A program made the translations under genes and the position numbers. From a virus, in IMG/VR virus record IMGVR_UViG_3300049846_001106, positions 1 to 23,151 of that record: a stretch of 23,151 nt of DNA. One strand, given 5' to 3'. Below, in pieces: positions 15,368 to 23,151 of the stretch; the first letter of the stretch is position 1; the number at the start of each line of letters is the position of its first letter. The notes beneath the pieces were generated by a model. That model had not been told where the DNA came from and did no database searches. It saw nothing but the letters and a program-made list of their open reading frames with translations.

Positions 15368-18300
15368 TTATTGTACCAGACCACCAGATTTTTTTCTATG
15401 TTTAATGCCACCAGTTGAAGCATTTGTCCAAAAGTCCTCAACAGTCTTTCGTTGTAAATTTGCCTGTGCTACCTTATTGATTTGAGGAGCGGGAGATTCA
15501 CCAAATAACTCATCGAAAGCATTATCAACATTACTTTCACCACTAGACATTATAGAAGTTGCCTTTGCTGCTTGTGATGTTGTCTGTGTTGACTTAAAAG
15601 CTGTTTTCAATCCACCTATATCTATAGCACCAAGAGTACCAGTTGCTGCGAATGGATCAATAGAGGCTGCGGGTCTTCGAGTTAGACCATAGTCAACAAG
15701 ACCAACACGCGGACCCAAAGGAGTATCAACTGCCATTATATTTCTAAGAGCTACGTCATTATGCTCAAACCCAAGTTGATGTAATTTCCTAAGAGCTTCT
15801 TCTGCTCCCTGTTCATATTGATGAAGGACAGATGAATCTACACGGCTTAATGCCTTCCCATGAAAGAGTTCAATATCTAGTGTATTTTTTCCAACACCAT
15901 ATAGAGAAGGACTATGTTCATATCCTAAAGACATTAACTCTTTTAGTGTCTCTGGTTCATTCTTTCCAATTTCACCTATCTTTCTAGCAAATTCGAAACG
16001 TTGTCCTCTAAACTCTGACGACATTTTAAAGACCTGGCCCTGTACACCTTCACCAAGTACCTCTAGTTGTCTAGCTCCCGCTAGAGCTGACTTAAACTCA
16101 CTAGTAGCAAGCATGGATTCAAATGTTTCACCGGCCCTTACTAATCCACGTAGACTATCCCAGCCAGAACCGAAGTCAGTATTTAGTTTACGACCAATCC
16201 AGGCAATACCTTTATGGCCTAATCCTTCGATATTGTTATAAGCATCCTTAAACCCAGAGAATCTACCACGCTTATCTCGATGCTGCCATTTAGCATCTAC
16301 TGACTTCTTAAGAGCAGCAAGATCTTCTTCATCGTTACCAGGATCAGCTAGAGTATTTACAAGTTCCATATATCTTGGGTTAATTTCTTTTCCTAGTCTT
16401 TTTGCTAGATCCTCGCCACCAAAGACTTGACCCTTTAGATAATAAAAAGCTCCAGGAATACCTTCTGTAATAACGTGTGGAATACCTCTTAGAAACTCAA
16501 GAACAGGTTGAATGAAAGATACATCCTTGCCTTCCTTCTTTTGTTCATAGAGACGCTTCAATAACATAGTTGATGCTTCATGTTCATCTCTATGCATTGT
16601 CCAAGCATCACCATGACTATGGATGTGATAAGTAGAGCGTGTATTCCGCCACGATGTCCAGCGATCCTGACCAGACTCAGGGATAGCTACTTTAACAGGA
16701 ACGAAACCAAGTTCCTTTTCCATCTCTTCTTCCGAGATGACATACTTAGGAATGATAATACGTTTATGACCTGTTCCTGTTTCTTGTCCATAGGCTTCTA
16801 GTGCTTTTTTGAAAATCTCAAATCGCTCAGCAGCTGTTTCTTTTCCTGTGTAACCGCTACCGAAGTGAGTATTTTCTTTACGTTGCATACCAAACCAACC
16901 ATGTGGCATGGCATCGATAATTACATAGTTATCGTCTTTAGCTGAGAAATGATTATCGTAATACTCGGCAGACCTATCTATAAACTGGCGACCAGGAGCT
17001 GTACGATAAACAAGAATAGCAGCATCATCAACCATATTGATAACACCACCAACCCAACCTGATCCGAAATCAGTTAATTCTTTTCGCTTCTTTTCAGCTT
17101 CACCACCATGCCGCAAACCTTCTATTGTGTTATGTGCATCATCCTTAGCTGTTATCTTATTTACTGCTCGTGTTTTCTTTTTAGTTCCCTTTTTATCACC
17201 TGCAAAGAGCTTATGAATGCCGTAAGCTATGCCACTTTGTATTCCTGCCATAAGTATGGGTAGTCCCATCTGCATAAGCATGGCTTTGCCATAGTGTAGG
17301 TTATGAGCTTTATTCCACTTTGGTAAAAATTCACTAATTAGTTTTTTATCCCATTTAGCTCCATGCTCTAAGAAGTGACCAAGTGTTTTATTAGCTTGTC
17401 TTTCTTCAAATAGAACACTGAGACCAGCAGCAGCAGAAAGACCAGCACTAACACCAAGCATAGGTAACGGATTCGCACCAGTTGCGAGTGTATAGATTGG
17501 TAAACCAAGATTTATAGCAGCTGAACCAATTCCAGCAAATCGACCACTCATTCCTACTGTAGCTAACTTACCCTTGAGACTATTAACCCCAACTCGGGCA
17601 TGTCCTAATTCGTGTCCTAGCGCTACTTCAGCTACCTGTTTATCTTGAAGACCATTTAAAGCTTTTGAAAGATTAGGTTTATTTTTTAGGCGACCAAGTT
17701 CACCATAGTTTATTGTTACTTGTTTGTTTAAGAAATTATATGTTGTATTCTGACCTATCTTATGCCAGATACTCGTTACTTGTGGAGGATCCATAAAGTG
17801 TCGTACTTCTGGAGCCCATGAAGTATTATGTAGTTCTCTAAATGCACGCTTAAAGCTATCAATCTCATACTCAGATAGCATTTGCTTGGGATCGAATCCT
17901 GAACCAAAATGGGTTAGCTCTTTTCTCTTTCGTTCAGCTATACCTCCATGTCGTAAGCCCTCTATGGTATTATGAGAGTCGTCTCGGCCAGAAAATCTAT
18001 TTCGTTTCTTTCTAAGATCTTCTATGAATCTCTGAACTCGTTTTTCTCTTTCCTTTTTTCGTCTTTCCTCTTGAATATTGTTTGCATATAGACCTGCACC
18101 AATTAGACCAGCACCACCAGCTGCACCAATAGCGTTAACCTGTGTTTTGGTAAATTCTGCATATGTTTCTTTTAGCTGACCTGTCTTCTTAATTTCTTGG
18201 TATAGACTATTAAGTTCCTGCATATGACTAGTAGAACCACCCCGATCAGGATGGTATTTCATTGCAAGATCTTTATATATCTCCTTGGCCTTATTAGAAT

Positions 18301-19735
18301 CAAAAGAATGTGTAATGGTTCTTTTTAACGATGTTCTTTCTCCTGAAAGAGTGGAGAGAACAAGCTCTCCCATATCTGCTGCTTTCTTAAACCATCCACT
18401 AAAACCTGTTCTACCTATAAACTCAGACTGTAACTGCTTTCTAATACTAGCAAGCGGAACTTCACGAGTAGCCTTGCCAGCATACTTTATTAACTGATAA
18501 CCAGAACCGAAGTCTGTTAGTTCTTTACGTTTCTTCTCGGCCTGACCACCATGACGAAGGCCCTCAATCGTATTGTACTTATCATCCTTACCAGAGAACA
18601 TTGATAAGGGCTTCAGGACCCATGCGGCAGCTAACCCAACGCCAGTACCAATGAGTAAGGGGTGTGCCTTAGCAGAAGACAACATATCTGCAAAGATCTT
18701 CTTGTTAAATCCTGGCTTATTAAGAAAGAACTTCTCGCTAGTTTCCTTAATGGCCTCACCAGCCATAATTCTTTCTGGTGCTACCTTATATGAACTAGCT
18801 AGTTCTCGAATATCTCCAAGCAGTCCTTCTTCTATCGAGGGCAGCGCCCCGCCGCCAAAAGAGACTGGCGACTTTGCCTTCTGAAGGATTTCTGTGATCT
18901 TTTCTGGGGTATTACCACTTCGAATACTGGATATGTATTTTCTTCTGAGAGCTTGTTGATGCCAAGCTTTGACTTTCTCGGGATCGCCTCCAAAGATAGG
19001 CTTATCTAATAGATCAGCTAATTGCTGACCAGCCATAACATCTTCTTCTGATAAGTGAGCCCGCAAGGGCTCCCCGACGCCCAAGAGTTTATAGAGATCC
19101 TCTTGTTTCCAACCGGCTACCTTATAGCCCTGTGTAGCTAACCACTTAGCCGTCTGTTGATCTGTCGCTCCGCTCTGATGTTGATAGGCCTTGCCTGACT
19201 CGACATAGGTTTTTATTTGGGAATAGAAATCTTGCTCGATAAGCTCCGGAAATTGATAGGCTTCGTTTGCAACCTTCCATGCATATTCCTGACCTATATC
19301 TCGGATCTTAAATTTCCCTAATGCTGCTTGATATCTATTCTCTAGGCCGTAGGCCTTGGCGCGTGTAAGCAACATAGGAATATCAAATCCCTGTGTACGC
19401 TCACCAAATGTCTGGCCCTGACGCTGATATCCAATATTCCAACCCGCAAGAGTTCCACCCTCTTCCGAGGTTTCGAGGACACCTAGAAAGGACTCAAGAG
19501 CAGTTTGCTCTGATGTCGCCTTTTGGCCCGTAGTCTGTAACCGTTCTTTTATCGGTCTCCAGACATTCTCATTGGACCACTGATAGACCCTAGATCCGTA
19601 AGCAGGGTCTGCGTAGAGACTCTGTACCTTTTCTCCTGGTCTTCCATAGGAGATTGAGAGAATAGAAGATTGGTGACCAGAAAGGCCACCTGCTTCTAGA
19701 TCAAAGAAAAGAAATGGTTTTTTAGGTGTGGTCAT
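15368..19735 (-). CDS. Giant modular protein: DEDDh exonuclease, DnaJ, M48 peptidase, kinase, joined by 34-aa repeats
   Basis: 1455 aa. Modules in order: DEDDh 3'-5' exonuclease at 8-235 (FFDLEAGG D12/E14; FDIPML D118; HLSEED H227/D232); repeat R1 at 380-413; DnaJ domain about 475-520 (KYHPDRGG, HPD 495-497); R2 581-614; M48-like zinc peptidase (HELGH 708-712; FEERQAN with E778) with membrane-type helices; R3 861-894; short segment 895-929; R4 930-962; an unassigned His-rich module 963-1158 (HIHSHGD at 1037-1043); R5 1159-1192; protein-kinase-like module about 1220-1370 (GEGVQGQV 1228-1235, K1252, HNDVALRN with D1327/N1332, VDYG with D1348). Key residues all look intact. The start overlaps the upstream gene by 14 nt with no good Shine-Dalgarno, suggesting coupling. 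I infer a polyprotein or modular cargo protein delivered with, or processed in, the virion. Individual domains are called from motifs only. Confidence 0.85.
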   Translation of the reverse strand: MTTPKKPFLFFDLEAGGLSGHQSSILSISYGRPGEKVQSLYADPAYGSRVYQWSNENVWRPIKERLQTTGQKATSEQTALESFLGVLETSEEGGTLAGWNIGYQRQGQTFGERTQGFDIPMLLTRAKAYGLENRYQAALGKFKIRDIGQEYAWKVANEAYQFPELIEQDFYSQIKTYVESGKAYQHQSGATDQQTAKWLATQGYKVAGWKQEDLYKLLGVGEPLRAHLSEEDVMAGQQLADLLDKPIFGGDPEKVKAWHQQALRRKYISSIRSGNTPEKITEILQKAKSPVSFGGGALPSIEEGLLGDIRELASSYKVAPERIMAGEAIKETSEKFFLNKPGFNKKIFADMLSSAKAHPLLIGTGVGLAAAWVLKPLSMFSGKDDKYNTIEGLRHGGQAEKKRKELTDFGSGYQLIKYAGKATREVPLASIRKQLQSEFIGRTGFSGWFKKAADMGELVLSTLSGERTSLKRTITHSFDSNKAKEIYKDLAMKYHPDRGGSTSHMQELNSLYQEIKKTGQLKETYAEFTKTQVNAIGAAGGAGLIGAGLYANNIQEERRKKEREKRVQRFIEDLRKKRNRFSGRDDSHNTIEGLRHGGIAERKRKELTHFGSGFDPKQMLSEYEIDSFKRAFRELHNTSWAPEVRHFMDPPQVTSIWHKIGQNTTYNFLNKQVTINYGELGRLKNKPNLSKALNGLQDKQVAEVALGHELGHARVGVNSLKGKLATVGMSGRFAGIGSAAINLGLPIYTLATGANPLPMLGVSAGLSAAAGLSVLFEERQANKTLGHFLEHGAKWDKKLISEFLPKWNKAHNLHYGKAMLMQMGLPILMAGIQSGIAYGIHKLFAGDKKGTKKKTRAVNKITAKDDAHNTIEGLRHGGEAEKKRKELTDFGSGWVGGVINMVDDAAILVYRTAPGRQFIDRSAEYYDNHFSAKDDNYVIIDAMPHGWFGMQRKENTHFGSGYTGKETAAERFEIFKKALEAYGQETGTGHKRIIIPKYVISEEEMEKELGFVPVKVAIPESGQDRWTSWRNTRSTYHIHSHGDAWTMHRDEHEASTMLLKRLYEQKKEGKDVSFIQPVLEFLRGIPHVITEGIPGAFYYLKGQVFGGEDLAKRLGKEINPRYMELVNTLADPGNDEEDLAALKKSVDAKWQHRDKRGRFSGFKDAYNNIEGLGHKGIAWIGRKLNTDFGSGWDSLRGLVRAGETFESMLATSEFKSALAGARQLEVLGEGVQGQVFKMSSEFRGQRFEFARKIGEIGKNEPETLKELMSLGYEHSPSLYGVGKNTLDIELFHGKALSRVDSSVLHQYEQGAEEALRKLHQLGFEHNDVALRNIMAVDTPLGPRVGLVDYGLTRRPAASIDPFAATGTLGAIDIGGLKTAFKSTQTTSQAAKATSIMSSGESNVDNAFDELFGESPAPQINKVAQANLQRKTVEDFWTNASTGGIKHRKKSGGLVQ
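16160..16261 (-). repeat. Inter-module repeat R5
   Basis: Residues 1159-1192. FSGFKDAYNNIEGLGHKG ... RKLNTDFGSGW. Separates the His-rich module from the kinase-like module. Confidence 0.93.
16850..16948 (-). repeat. Inter-module repeat R4 (divergent)
   Basis: Residues 930-962, 33 aa, one residue shorter than the others. FSAKDDNYVIIDAMPHGW ... RKENTHFGSGY. NTIEGL is changed to VIIDAM, but the FS-x-KDD start, PHG and FGSG end remain. Only 35 residues separate it from R3. Confidence 0.85.
17054..17155 (-). repeat. Inter-module repeat R3
   Basis: Residues 861-894. ITAKDDAHNTIEGLRHGG ... RKELTDFGSGW. Follows the peptidase module, a hydrophobic segment (PILMAGIQSGIAYGI) and a Lys-rich stretch. 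Confidence 0.95.
17894..17995 (-). repeat. Inter-module repeat R2
   Basis: Residues 581-614. FSGRDDSHNTIEGLRHGG ... RKELTHFGSGF. Separates the DnaJ module from the HELGH peptidase. Preceded by a Gly-rich hydrophobic segment (IGAAGGAGLIGAGLY) and a very basic stretch. Confidence 0.95.
18497..18598 (-). repeat. Inter-module repeat R1
   Basis: Residues 380-413 of the giant protein. FSGKDDKYNTIEGLRHGG, then about six residues, then RKELTDFGSGY. Separates the exonuclease from the DnaJ module. Directly preceded by a hydrophobic Gly-rich helix (LLIGTGVGLAAAWVL). Confidence 0.95.
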
Positions 19736-21617: not shown

Positions 21618-21842
21618 ATGAGTTATCAGTACTGCAAACTGAGTGATGTGATGAAGAAGATCTCCCTCTATGAAGAAGGAGAGAAAGGTCATCAACCATT
21701 GTCTAAGGAGACATTGGATTACTTCACTGGTGGGTATATCCCGCCGACTGAAGAAGAGATGACTGGCTTCTTTAACAAGGCTATTCGGTATACTAGTGAT
21801 CGCCTAACAGTGATCATTAGTAAAGACTGGAAGCCTTGGTAA
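21618..21842 (+). CDS. Small protein of unknown function
   Basis: 74 aa, MSYQYCKLSDVMKKISLYEE... An AAGGAGAG Shine-Dalgarno is 6-7 nt before the ATG. Charged and soluble; the C-terminus is aromatic (SKDWKPW). No recognised motif; YIPPTEEEMTGFFNKAIRY may be a helix with a short Pro turn. First gene of a plus-strand cluster whose genes are separated by structured RNA. The leader carries a hairpin that could control translation. Function unknown; non-structural, possibly early, by orientation. Confidence 0.75.
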   Translation: MSYQYCKLSDVMKKISLYEEGEKGHQPLSKETLDYFTGGYIPPTEEEMTGFFNKAIRYTSDRLTVIISKDWKPW

Positions 21843-21852
21843 GGCAGACGGG

Positions 21853-21870
21853 TGGGGACGCAAGTCCCCA
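21853..21870 (+). promoter_or_regulatory. GNRA-capped hairpin (GCAA) after first plus-strand gene
   Basis: A perfect 7-bp stem, TGGGGAC (21853-21859) with GTCCCCA (21864-21870), capped by GCAA. It begins 10 nt after the stop codon and is followed directly by structured element A. There is no T-run, so it is not an ordinary terminator. A stability or tertiary-docking hairpin is likely. Confidence 0.75.
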
Positions 21871-21871
21871 T

Positions 21872-21935
21872 TAATGCACTACTACATGCATGGTGTGTGT
21901 AGTACCAGGTCCGAAGTCCTGGATATTGTGCGTTA
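21872..21935 (+). ncRNA. Structured RNA element A (three-helix, 64 nt)
   Basis: P1: TAATGCAC (21872-21879) with GTGCGTTA (21928-21935). P2: CTAC with GTAG (21879-21882, 21899-21902), a 3-nt TAC bulge, then ATGCA with TGTGT and a TGG triloop. P3: CCAGG with CCTGG (21905-21922). The junction has GGATATTG. It has the same length and form as element B, with base changes that keep the pairing. The Shine-Dalgarno GGGAG of the next gene follows about 7 nt after P1. Not a class I recognise. Confidence 0.7.
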
Positions 21936-21954
21936 CTAAGTAAGGGAGATTCAG

Positions 21955-22185
21955 ATGAACAGCAACAAAACCTTTAAGAGCAACGTCCTCGTGTCAGTCA
22001 GCTGCATCGACTGTGGTAAGGAGCATGCTCTTGATACGGACACTAGCAAGCCTTGTGCTTGTGGTGGTGGTGTAGCCGCGCCTGGTCTCGACCTGAAGAA
22101 GTTCGGGTGGGAGCATGACCAGAAGTACTACACCCGTATCCGATTCGAGCATAGTGTCAATAAGGGACACTTGTTCGACCTCTAG
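21955..22185 (+). CDS. Small zinc-ribbon-like protein
   Basis: 76 aa. C17-x2-C20 (SCIDCGKEH) and C34-x-C36 (KPCACGGG) make a probable four-cysteine zinc site. The rest is hydrophilic, with aromatic residues near the end (HDQKYYTRIRFEH). Shine-Dalgarno AAGGGAG precedes the ATG by about 7 nt. Codons are richer in C/G than in the structural operon. It lies between structured elements A and B. Function unknown; small phage zinc-ribbon proteins often bind host proteins or nucleic acids, but nothing here selects among those. Confidence 0.75.
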   Translation: MNSNKTFKSNVLVSVSCIDCGKEHALDTDTSKPCACGGGVAAPGLDLKKFGWEHDQKYYTRIRFEHSVNKGHLFDL

Positions 22186-22191
22186 CAGAGG

Positions 22192-22211
22192 ACTACCCCG
22201 TAAGGGGTAGT
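22192..22211 (+). promoter_or_regulatory. GNRA-capped hairpin (GTAA) after second plus-strand gene
   Basis: An 8-bp stem, ACTACCCC (22192-22199) with GGGGTAGT (22204-22211), capped by GTAA. It begins 6 nt after the stop codon and abuts element B. It differs in sequence from the matching hairpin at 21853-21870 but keeps form and tetraloop type. Confidence 0.75.
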
Positions 22212-22274
22212 AATGCCCTACTATCTACATAGTGTAGGTAGTACCAGTTCCAAGGCTGGATATTGGCTGCATTA
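22211..22274 (+). ncRNA. Structured RNA element B (three-helix, 64 nt)
   Basis: P1: TAATGC (22211-22216) with GCATTA (22269-22274). P2: CTAC with GTAG, a TAT bulge, then CTACA with TGTAG and a TAG triloop (22218-22241). P3: CCAG with CTGG (22244-22259). The junction has GGATATTG. The first T of P1 is shared with the preceding hairpin, so the two compete or stack. The GTAGGAG Shine-Dalgarno of the next gene follows. Confidence 0.7.
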
Positions 22275-22293: not shown

Positions 22294-23052
22294 ATGCGTA
22301 TTGACATCATCAACCACATCCTGGAAACCACCAACAGCTTTAGCAGCAATCCTCTTTCTCACTTCATGGTGAGTGATGAGGAGAGCGTGGGCAACAATGT
22401 CCTGTTCGATAACCTCACCTCTGGTGAGGAAGTCGGTATGGATGATGAGCCCACCAAGCTGGAGGAAGGTCCGGACAATGAGCGTCTTCTTGACGTAGCT
22501 CTCTGTCTGCATGATGTACAGATCCGCACCCTCAAGGTAGCGGTGAAGTACAATGATGCGAAGAAGGCTATTGTGAAGCAGATCAACGAACTCTACACCA
22601 AGTGGAATTCGTTCCTCGAAACCGAGAAGTTCGAGGCGCTCACCAAAGGCCAGAAGTCTCTGGCATGGGACAAGTACAAGTCCCACATGAATGCGCTGAA
22701 GGAGCGCAATGAGAAGGCCAAGCCCTTTGTACAGGAAGCTTGGAACAACTACAATCAGGCCAAAGCAGAGTTCAACTCCTATATGGAGGCGAATACCTCT
22801 CTCTGGCCGCTCTTCTACTCTCTCATGAGTGATGAGTCTGATAGTTCCGGCTATTGGACTCGCTCAGGTGAGAGCTGGCAGGCTGAGACTGAGATCGTCA
22901 CCGCAGATGATCTCATTAAGGCCTCCCAGATGCGGGAGATCAACCAGATGGACGAGGAAGAAGCTATCCTCGCCCGTATTGGCATCTCTGACCAGCAGGA
23001 GGAAGAGGAATCTGAGGTCAATGACCTCTTGGCTACTGAACTTGGCATCTAA
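22294..23052 (+). CDS. Acidic helical protein of unknown function
   Basis: 252 aa, MRIDIINHILETTNSFSSNP... The GTAGGAG Shine-Dalgarno is 6-7 nt before the ATG. Residues about 1-65 are acidic and probably disordered. Residues 65-165 form long charged helices (DVQIRTLKVAVKYNDAKKAI; AKPFVQEAWNNYNQAKAEFN), perhaps a coiled-coil bundle. The C-terminal 60 residues are again very acidic (MDEEEAILARIGISDQQEEE). No catalytic motif seen. The overall negative charge is compatible with a DNA mimic or a binding protein, but that is only a guess. C/G-rich codons suggest good expression. Two other open frames on the opposite strand inside it are shadows. Confidence 0.8.
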   Translation: MRIDIINHILETTNSFSSNPLSHFMVSDEESVGNNVLFDNLTSGEEVGMDDEPTKLEEGPDNERLLDVALCLHDVQIRTLKVAVKYNDAKKAIVKQINELYTKWNSFLETEKFEALTKGQKSLAWDKYKSHMNALKERNEKAKPFVQEAWNNYNQAKAEFNSYMEANTSLWPLFYSLMSDESDSSGYWTRSGESWQAETEIVTADDLIKASQMREINQMDEEEAILARIGISDQQEEEESEVNDLLATELGI

Positions 23053-23106
23053 GTAGCCTCCAGACCTGGGCAAGTCTATAAACTGCCCACCTATCGACTC
23101 TACTTA
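23050..23106 (+). ncRNA. Structured region after the last plus-strand gene
   Basis: TAAGTAG (23050-23056, containing the stop codon) pairs perfectly with CTACTTA (23100-23106). Inside is TGGGCA (23067-23072) with TGCCCA (23084-23089). It is not the same sequence as elements A and B but has a similar layout. A second hairpin, TATACT (23105-23110) with AGTATA (23118-23123), holds an AAGGAG in its loop and stem. The region to 23151 has no gene that I can support. Confidence 0.45.
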
Positions 23107-23151
23107 TACTACTAAGGAGTATATAGACAGTACAATATATATGGTATGGGT

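Follow-up and report, generated by a model that had tools for sequence, protein, structure and literature searches.

Intercistronic cuts that leave structured ends on mRNAs are made at the RNase III sites of phage T7. Self-cleaving RNAs have also been described beside phage genes (PMC5408937, PMC6154101, PMC10085705 and PMC3088659 are cited here and below from extracts). Clusters of hammerhead ribozymes flank prophage genes and cleave in vitro and in E. coli, and a role in processing of long phage transcripts has been proposed for them (Perreault et al. 2011, PMC3088659). In bacteria, the vicinity of Mu-like phage genes is enriched in twister and hammerhead ribozymes, and these ribozymes also tend to lie close to one another, for reasons given as unknown (PMC10085705). 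Twisters occur as types P1, P3 and P5, contain the pseudoknots T1 and T2 and cleave at a U-A step, which is the basis of the scissile bonds predicted below (PMC5408937); P5 stems are present in about 1% of annotated twisters (PMC6154101). The glmS ribozyme lies in the 5′ UTR of a bacterial mRNA and leaves a 5′-OH product that is degraded by RNase J1 (PMC3997798), and pairing of the 5′ terminus stabilises mRNA, according to the titles of cited references.

Two RNA elements of a phage locus, A and B, resemble the described type-P5 twisters (RF02684; permutations in PMC5408937 and PMC10085705) in having GCAGA with L1, a closed P1, UAAUGC with a U|A site, P4/L4 with AAG, both pseudoknots and the strand order of the P5 permutation. 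They differ in that a 3′ antisense tail is added in a subset and in that elements of this kind are arranged in strict stop-ribozyme-SD series, with as many as 15 in one phage. Like the prophage hammerhead clusters, several ribozymes (here predicted to self-cleave) flank single phage genes; the hammerheads are another ribozyme class, and the extract of PMC3088659 mentions neither stop-codon overlap nor an antisense tail.

The window (i.e. the whole stretch of DNA analysed) is an IMG/VR virus record of 23,151 bases with terminase, portal and capsid genes of phage type on its minus strand. The closest named-phage matches of the terminase were those of Moorella MTATph1 (34.8% identity over 65%), Acinetobacter ME3 and Bacillus KLEB27-3. 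As the named phages with the closest terminases are 177–235 kb in size, the window probably represents part of a large phage genome. At its right end are three consecutive plus-strand ORFs, and the two elements fill both gaps between them (Table 1). Homologues of the 252-aa protein were absent from viral_contigs, the 76-aa protein was absent from the four relatives searched, and blastn against named phages gave no match for this region, for phage contig G019 or for locus L026.

Table 1. Features of the locus carrying elements A and B (window coordinates)
Feature	Position	Strand	Basis and remarks
74-aa ORF, upstream of ribozyme A	21618..21842	+	no family found
Ribozyme A, type-P5 twister	21843..21921	+	RF02684; starts right after stop TAA 21840-21842
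A: P2 5′ strand, L1 (GCAGA) and T1 strand	21844..21851	+	alignment; T1 strand CGG 21849-21851 pairs with L4 CCG 21911-21913
A: closed P1 hairpin	21852..21871	+	fold, 21852-21859 / 21864-21871; P1 -15.1 kcal/mol
A: catalytic strand UAAUGC and T2 strand AC	21872..21879	+	predicted scissile bond U21872|A21873
A: P4 hairpin with L4	21905..21922	+	T1 strand 21911-21913, T2 strand 21916-21917; P3 of the original prediction
A: antisense tail GUGCGUUA	21928..21935	+	8 bp complementary to UAAUGCAC 21872-21879
76-aa ORF, between the two predicted cuts	21955..22185	+	no family found
Ribozyme B, type-P5 twister	22184..22259	+	RF02684 at gathering; stop TAG 22183-22185 overlaps first G of GCAGA
B: P2 5′ strand, L1 (GCAGA) and T1 strand	22185..22192	+	alignment; T1 strand GGA 22190-22192 pairs with L4 UCC 22249-22251
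B: closed P1 hairpin	22193..22210	+	fold, -14.3 kcal/mol
B: catalytic strand UAAUGC and T2 strand CC	22211..22218	+	predicted scissile bond U22211|A22212
B: antisense tail GG-(CU)-GCAUUA	22265..22274	+	complementary to UAAUGCCC with 2-nt bulge; 6 contiguous bp computed, GG/CC extension and bulge by eye
252-aa ORF, downstream of ribozyme B	22294..23052	+	weak PHROG match, function unknown

Two other features of the window were observed. A 1455-aa protein (15368–19735, minus strand) contains five copies of a motif of about 30 residues (NTIEGLRHGG..RKELTDFGSGW-like) at about residues 389, 590, 870, 939 and 1168, and a single copy also occurs in a relative phage, G003 (L005). Between the motifs, segments resembling an exonuclease, a DnaJ domain, a metallopeptidase, a JAB-like domain and a kinase were seen by eye, the DnaJ domain with a weak Pfam match; the motif may serve as a tag for virion cargo. 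Gene ends are followed by a second conserved hairpin, non-coding and with a GUCURUAAAC-like loop, in the window (23060–23110, plus strand) and twice in G003 (L013, 1840–1870 and 2005–2035). No Rfam match was obtained for this hairpin in the window, and it may represent a promoter or a further regulatory RNA.

Elements A and B are identified by sequence as type-P5 twister self-cleaving ribozymes. Both were aligned to RF02684 over 58 of 58 model positions, with E-values in this record of 5.1e-10 (A) and 2.6e-8 (B). The match of A scored 44.2 bits (gathering 37.6); that of B scored 37.6 bits, i.e. the gathering score itself, and was listed in searches of short stretches and of the record but not in the whole-window gathering scan. 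The aligned parts in each copy were GCAGA with L1, the closed P1 hairpin, UAAUGC, a variable P3 hairpin and P4 with L4, and the conserved U|A scissile step (as defined in PMC5408937) falls in the UAAUGC directly after P1. An 8-bp P5 in A is possible by eye (21835–21842/21933–21940) and in B none stands out; P5 is not part of the Rfam model. No hammerhead family reached threshold within the window, and matches to SNORD35 and MIR7729 were far below gathering and are attributed to chance.

The original prediction had found both elements at their correct positions as 64-nt copies of one structured RNA, used twice with compensatory changes, and had matched it to neither twister nor any other known class. 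The repeats are real, and two of their hairpins differ between the copies with pairing kept (P2 and P3 as then named, i.e. P3 and P4 of the twister). An unknown riboswitch or RNA class is ruled out by the RF02684 matches, and the failure to match a twister is corrected by these matches and by the covariation of both pseudoknots. The functional unit also extends about 28 nt further upstream, into GCAGA, L1 and the P1 hairpin (21844–21871; 22185–22210). The first base of each 64-nt element is the U of UAAUGC, just 5′ of the scissile bond, so that the expected 3′ cleavage product had been seen rather than the ribozyme. The three-helix fold assigned to both copies was recovered for A alone (-26.7 kcal/mol, z -3.6); the minimum-energy fold of isolated B differs, so for B that fold rests on comparison and not on energy.

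The Rfam model contains no pseudoknots and T1 and T2 therefore provide an independent test of the fold. T1 joins the three bases after GCAGA to three bases of L4, as CGG/CCG in A and GGA/UCC in B, and as GCA/UGC and UGA/UCA in G003. Because the element-finding script demands T1 pairing, T1 was counted only on Rfam hits, of which there were 73; four were dropped (three identical copies with CAG for AAG in L4 and one off-layout). All three pairs were intact in 67 of the 69 readable hits. Among distinct triplet combinations, 8 of 10 were complementary as compared to a shuffle mean of 2.0, a count of 8 being reached in 1 of 5000 shuffles; most of the records counted had been fetched by patterns fixing T1 as GTG/CAC or GG+YCC, and the combinations CGG, GCA, UGA, AGG and GCG were not pattern-selected. 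T2 joins the dinucleotide after UAAUGC to L4 (AC/GU in A, CC/GG in B) and was assessed on 78 elements found by the script, which demands T1 but not T2. Pairing between L4 and position 7 after the scissile U was present in 44 of 45 distinct record combinations, as compared to a null mean of 29.1, and none of 5000 shuffles reached this value. On these alignments, both twister pseudoknots covary across relatives. Further covarying homologues, the lack of which had been set beforehand as one part of the refuting test, were thus found, and both the homologues and the covariation favour a real structure.

Copies of the element were present in other phages and in bacteria. The relative G003 (terminase 37% identical) contains two RF02684 matches just below gathering (36.7 and 33.9 bits), each directly 3′ of a stop codon and followed by SD-ATG. 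DNA-pattern scans, which placed no constraint on stop codon or SD, yielded 78 distinct elements across 39 records; this count includes L062 and L064, with no RF02684 match over the cut-off, and L048, with none above gathering. RF02684 matched at E ≤ 0.001 in 30 of the 32 records tested (over the cut-off in 29) and gave no match in 14 control genomes, in three named large phages with related terminases or in Pseudomonas phage HRDY3. Elements were found by the script in 10 of 21 pattern loci (L047, L048, L049, L050, L054, L059, L061, L062, L063 and L064), of which L061 had a chance-like appearance and was excluded from the 78. All four loci of one pattern (L007–L010) were near-copies of one sequence without the surrounding structure and were taken as chance; L017, L019 and L021 matched a pattern, lacked GCAGA and P1, and were discarded. 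A scan of bacterial genomes gave eight loci, all Rfam-confirmed, in seven metagenome-assembled genomes and Lacrimispora amygdalina, whose strain PI-S10-A1B (L072) is the one named bacterial strain with a copy; one clostridial metagenome-assembled genome had five type-P5 copies and another had three. In the Clostridia genome RGIG7288 (L067), five type-P5 twisters lie within about 2 kb with a tmRNA gene nearby. A twister-P5 copy with CAG for the AAG of L4 (56.5 bits) was seen in L106, L107 and L108 (G015, G023 and G012) and is possibly a natural variant or a dead copy.

The largest arrays comprised 15 RF02684 matches each, all on the minus strand of G019 (22705–30315) and all on the plus strand of G030 (21418–30802). 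These are phage contigs of 81–83 kb (L104 and L103, respectively), with the 15 ribozymes confined to about 8–9 kb. A blastn search with one 73-nt element of G019 returned short, chance-like matches only. The copies in G019 have nearly identical P1 hairpins and varying P3 hairpins, a pattern suggestive of duplication and homogenisation, and the ribozymes could on this basis be selfish repeats or recombination boundaries, i.e. homologous spacers for gene shuffling in which catalysis is incidental. This explanation appears highly improbable, as P3, T1 and T2 vary with pairing kept, indicating that the fold is under selection, and the same placement recurs in unrelated records of different sequence. 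Another function is suggested by the window itself, where the two predicted cuts flank one ORF and would release an RNA of 339 nt (21873–22211) carrying the 76-aa ORF. Twister ends suit RtcB, and paired ribozymes might excise such a small RNA for circularisation by this ligase. The copies in G019 and G030 are however serial between many genes and not paired, many records have a single match, and no circular products of the prophage hammerheads were detected according to the extract of PMC3088659; excision is regarded as extremely unlikely.

Both A and B have a stop codon on their 5′ side and the next SD/ATG on their 3′ side, as the original prediction had stated, and this arrangement was general among the copies. 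Using ORFs of at least 30 codons, 75 of the 78 elements were testable on both sides and were compared to 15,600 random positions from the same loci. A stop codon ended at -4 to +6 nt of GCAGA for 56 of 75 elements (9.9% of random positions), and a stop together with an SD/start surrounded 50 of 75 (3.0% of random positions). The stop overlapped the ribozyme by one base in 32 of 78 elements. Without G019 and G030, 31 of 48 elements abutted a stop, and at least one stop-abutting element was present in 26 of 39 records. In G019 and G030, ribozymes occupied most gaps between same-strand genes (mechanical ORFs), mostly with a single copy in each. At the level of sequence, the stop-abutting, pre-SD placement is established alongside family membership and both pseudoknots. 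Median spacing was 29 nt from stop to scissile bond and 62.5 nt from scissile bond to start, so that each cistron would retain its stop, SD and start after the predicted cleavage.

Some copies carry a further 3′ segment. In the window, P4 is followed by AUAUU and then by the tail (Table 1), which is the 3′ strand of the helix originally named P1 (AAUGCAC/GUGCGUU). As the tail is complementary both to UAAUGC and to the dinucleotide of T2, its helix excludes twister P2 and T2; the predicted helix exists in a subset of relatives and competes with P2 of the ribozyme rather than forming part of its core. Pairing of at least 6 contiguous bases was found in 20 of 78 elements as compared to 1.9 expected from shuffled tails, the 20 including A and B, which had been chosen for that pairing. 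Those outside the window were all reachable by tail-unconstrained searches, some having first been seen in a tail-constrained scan. The tail is present in 15 of 39 records and absent in 24; in G019 an SD follows P4 almost directly. As the 5′ strand of the tail helix is fixed by catalysis, covariation is visible only at positions 7–8. In the 8-bp helices, position 7 is A-U (window A, L015, G006, L018 and L035), G-C (G012 and G030) or C-G (G030), and a GG/CC extension with a 2-nt bulge is shared by eye between B and the G003 pair. In tail-bearing copies of G006, L026, L035, L039, L042, L043, L072 and G030, the first bases of the predicted 3′ product are paired with the tail in its minimum-energy fold. 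In L018 the tail helix did not form in the predicted 3′ product, and for both window copies and both G003 copies a fold other than the full helix was preferred at minimum energy when longer context was included.

The tail and the position of the stop codon raise the prospect of a regulated switch, in which a terminating ribosome would cover GCAGA and the T1 strand while the tail captured UAAUGC; the RNA would stay uncut while the upstream gene was translated and would be cut otherwise. Consistent with such a switch, the stop abuts or overlaps the P2/T1 strand, and the bases paired by the tail are those of P2, with matching variation at position 7. The stop could however owe its position to short intergenic gaps alone, most records have no tail, and the twister would form ahead of transcription of the tail. 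Twister cleavage is also fast. A switch in which tail and ribosome compete with twister folding is therefore judged unlikely; gating by the terminating ribosome is possible.

Intercistronic processing is the most likely role on the present comparisons, and A and B probably act as type-P5 twisters that cut the polycistronic phage mRNA between cistrons. Self-cleavage of the transcript is predicted at U21872|A21873 and U22211|A22212. In the type-P5 order, the closed P1 hairpin would lie 5′ of the cut and the P3 and P4 hairpins 3′ of it. With this strand order, the stop would remain on the upstream mRNA, which would now end in a hairpin (for A, its P1 hairpin), and SD and start would remain on the downstream mRNA, preceded by hairpins. 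P1 was predicted to be stable in all 66 folded elements (-9.0 to -26.5 kcal/mol). In tail-bearing copies such as A and B, cleavage would free the catalytic strand (AAUGC..) for pairing with the tail, and the new 5′-OH end would be closed into a three-way junction; such a closed 5′ stem could block re-ligation and shield the RNA against 5′-end-dependent nucleases. This 5′ sealing is a further inference, from modelled folds, for the tail-bearing subset, and its absence from 24 of 39 records means that it cannot be the general function. SD accessibility did not change on cleavage in the folding model, and unmasking of the SD was dropped as an explanation. Overall, processing would yield mRNAs of one or a few cistrons with no need for a protein nuclease, in the manner of the prophage hammerhead arrays. 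The proposed intercistronic cuts leaving structured mRNA ends are like those at the T7 RNase III sites, which differ in using a host protein nuclease and in their chemistry and ends.

Cleavage could instead destabilise the downstream message by creating a 5′-OH entry site for degradation, as for glmS. Ribozyme products bear a 5′-OH and RNase J1 degrades a glmS product (PMC3997798), and glmS shares with these elements a self-cleaving ribozyme, its 5′-UTR location in a bacterial mRNA and the 5′-OH left behind; it differs in being ligand-dependent, in destabilising its own mRNA and in its unrelated fold (PMC3997798). The predicted 3′ product has hairpins near its 5′ end and, in a subset, a tail that may pair with that end, and 15 destabilisers in one operon region seem implausible, so that destabilisation is considered very unlikely. 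Returning to intercistronic processing, a broader proposal is offered tentatively: in some phages, type-P5 twisters fused to the stop codon may serve as general intercistronic punctuation in place of a nuclease, and in a subset the tail may turn the spent catalytic strand into a closed, cap-like 5′ stem, such that one RNA element would cut the message and protect both new ends.

No description of phage type-P5 twister arrays or of the antisense tail was found in the literature searched, and earlier notice, for example in Roth 2014 or Weinberg 2015, is possible. The twister family is already known; in our view, the serial stop-fused arrays and the antisense tail are the new part. The antisense tail suggests a route by which an RNA with a 5′-OH end may survive. 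Arrays of up to 15 copies, locked between stop and ribosome site, give a direct form to the question of why twister and hammerhead ribozymes cluster near phage genes (raised in the extract of PMC10085705), and pose the question of whether phages cut their operons into gene-length messages.
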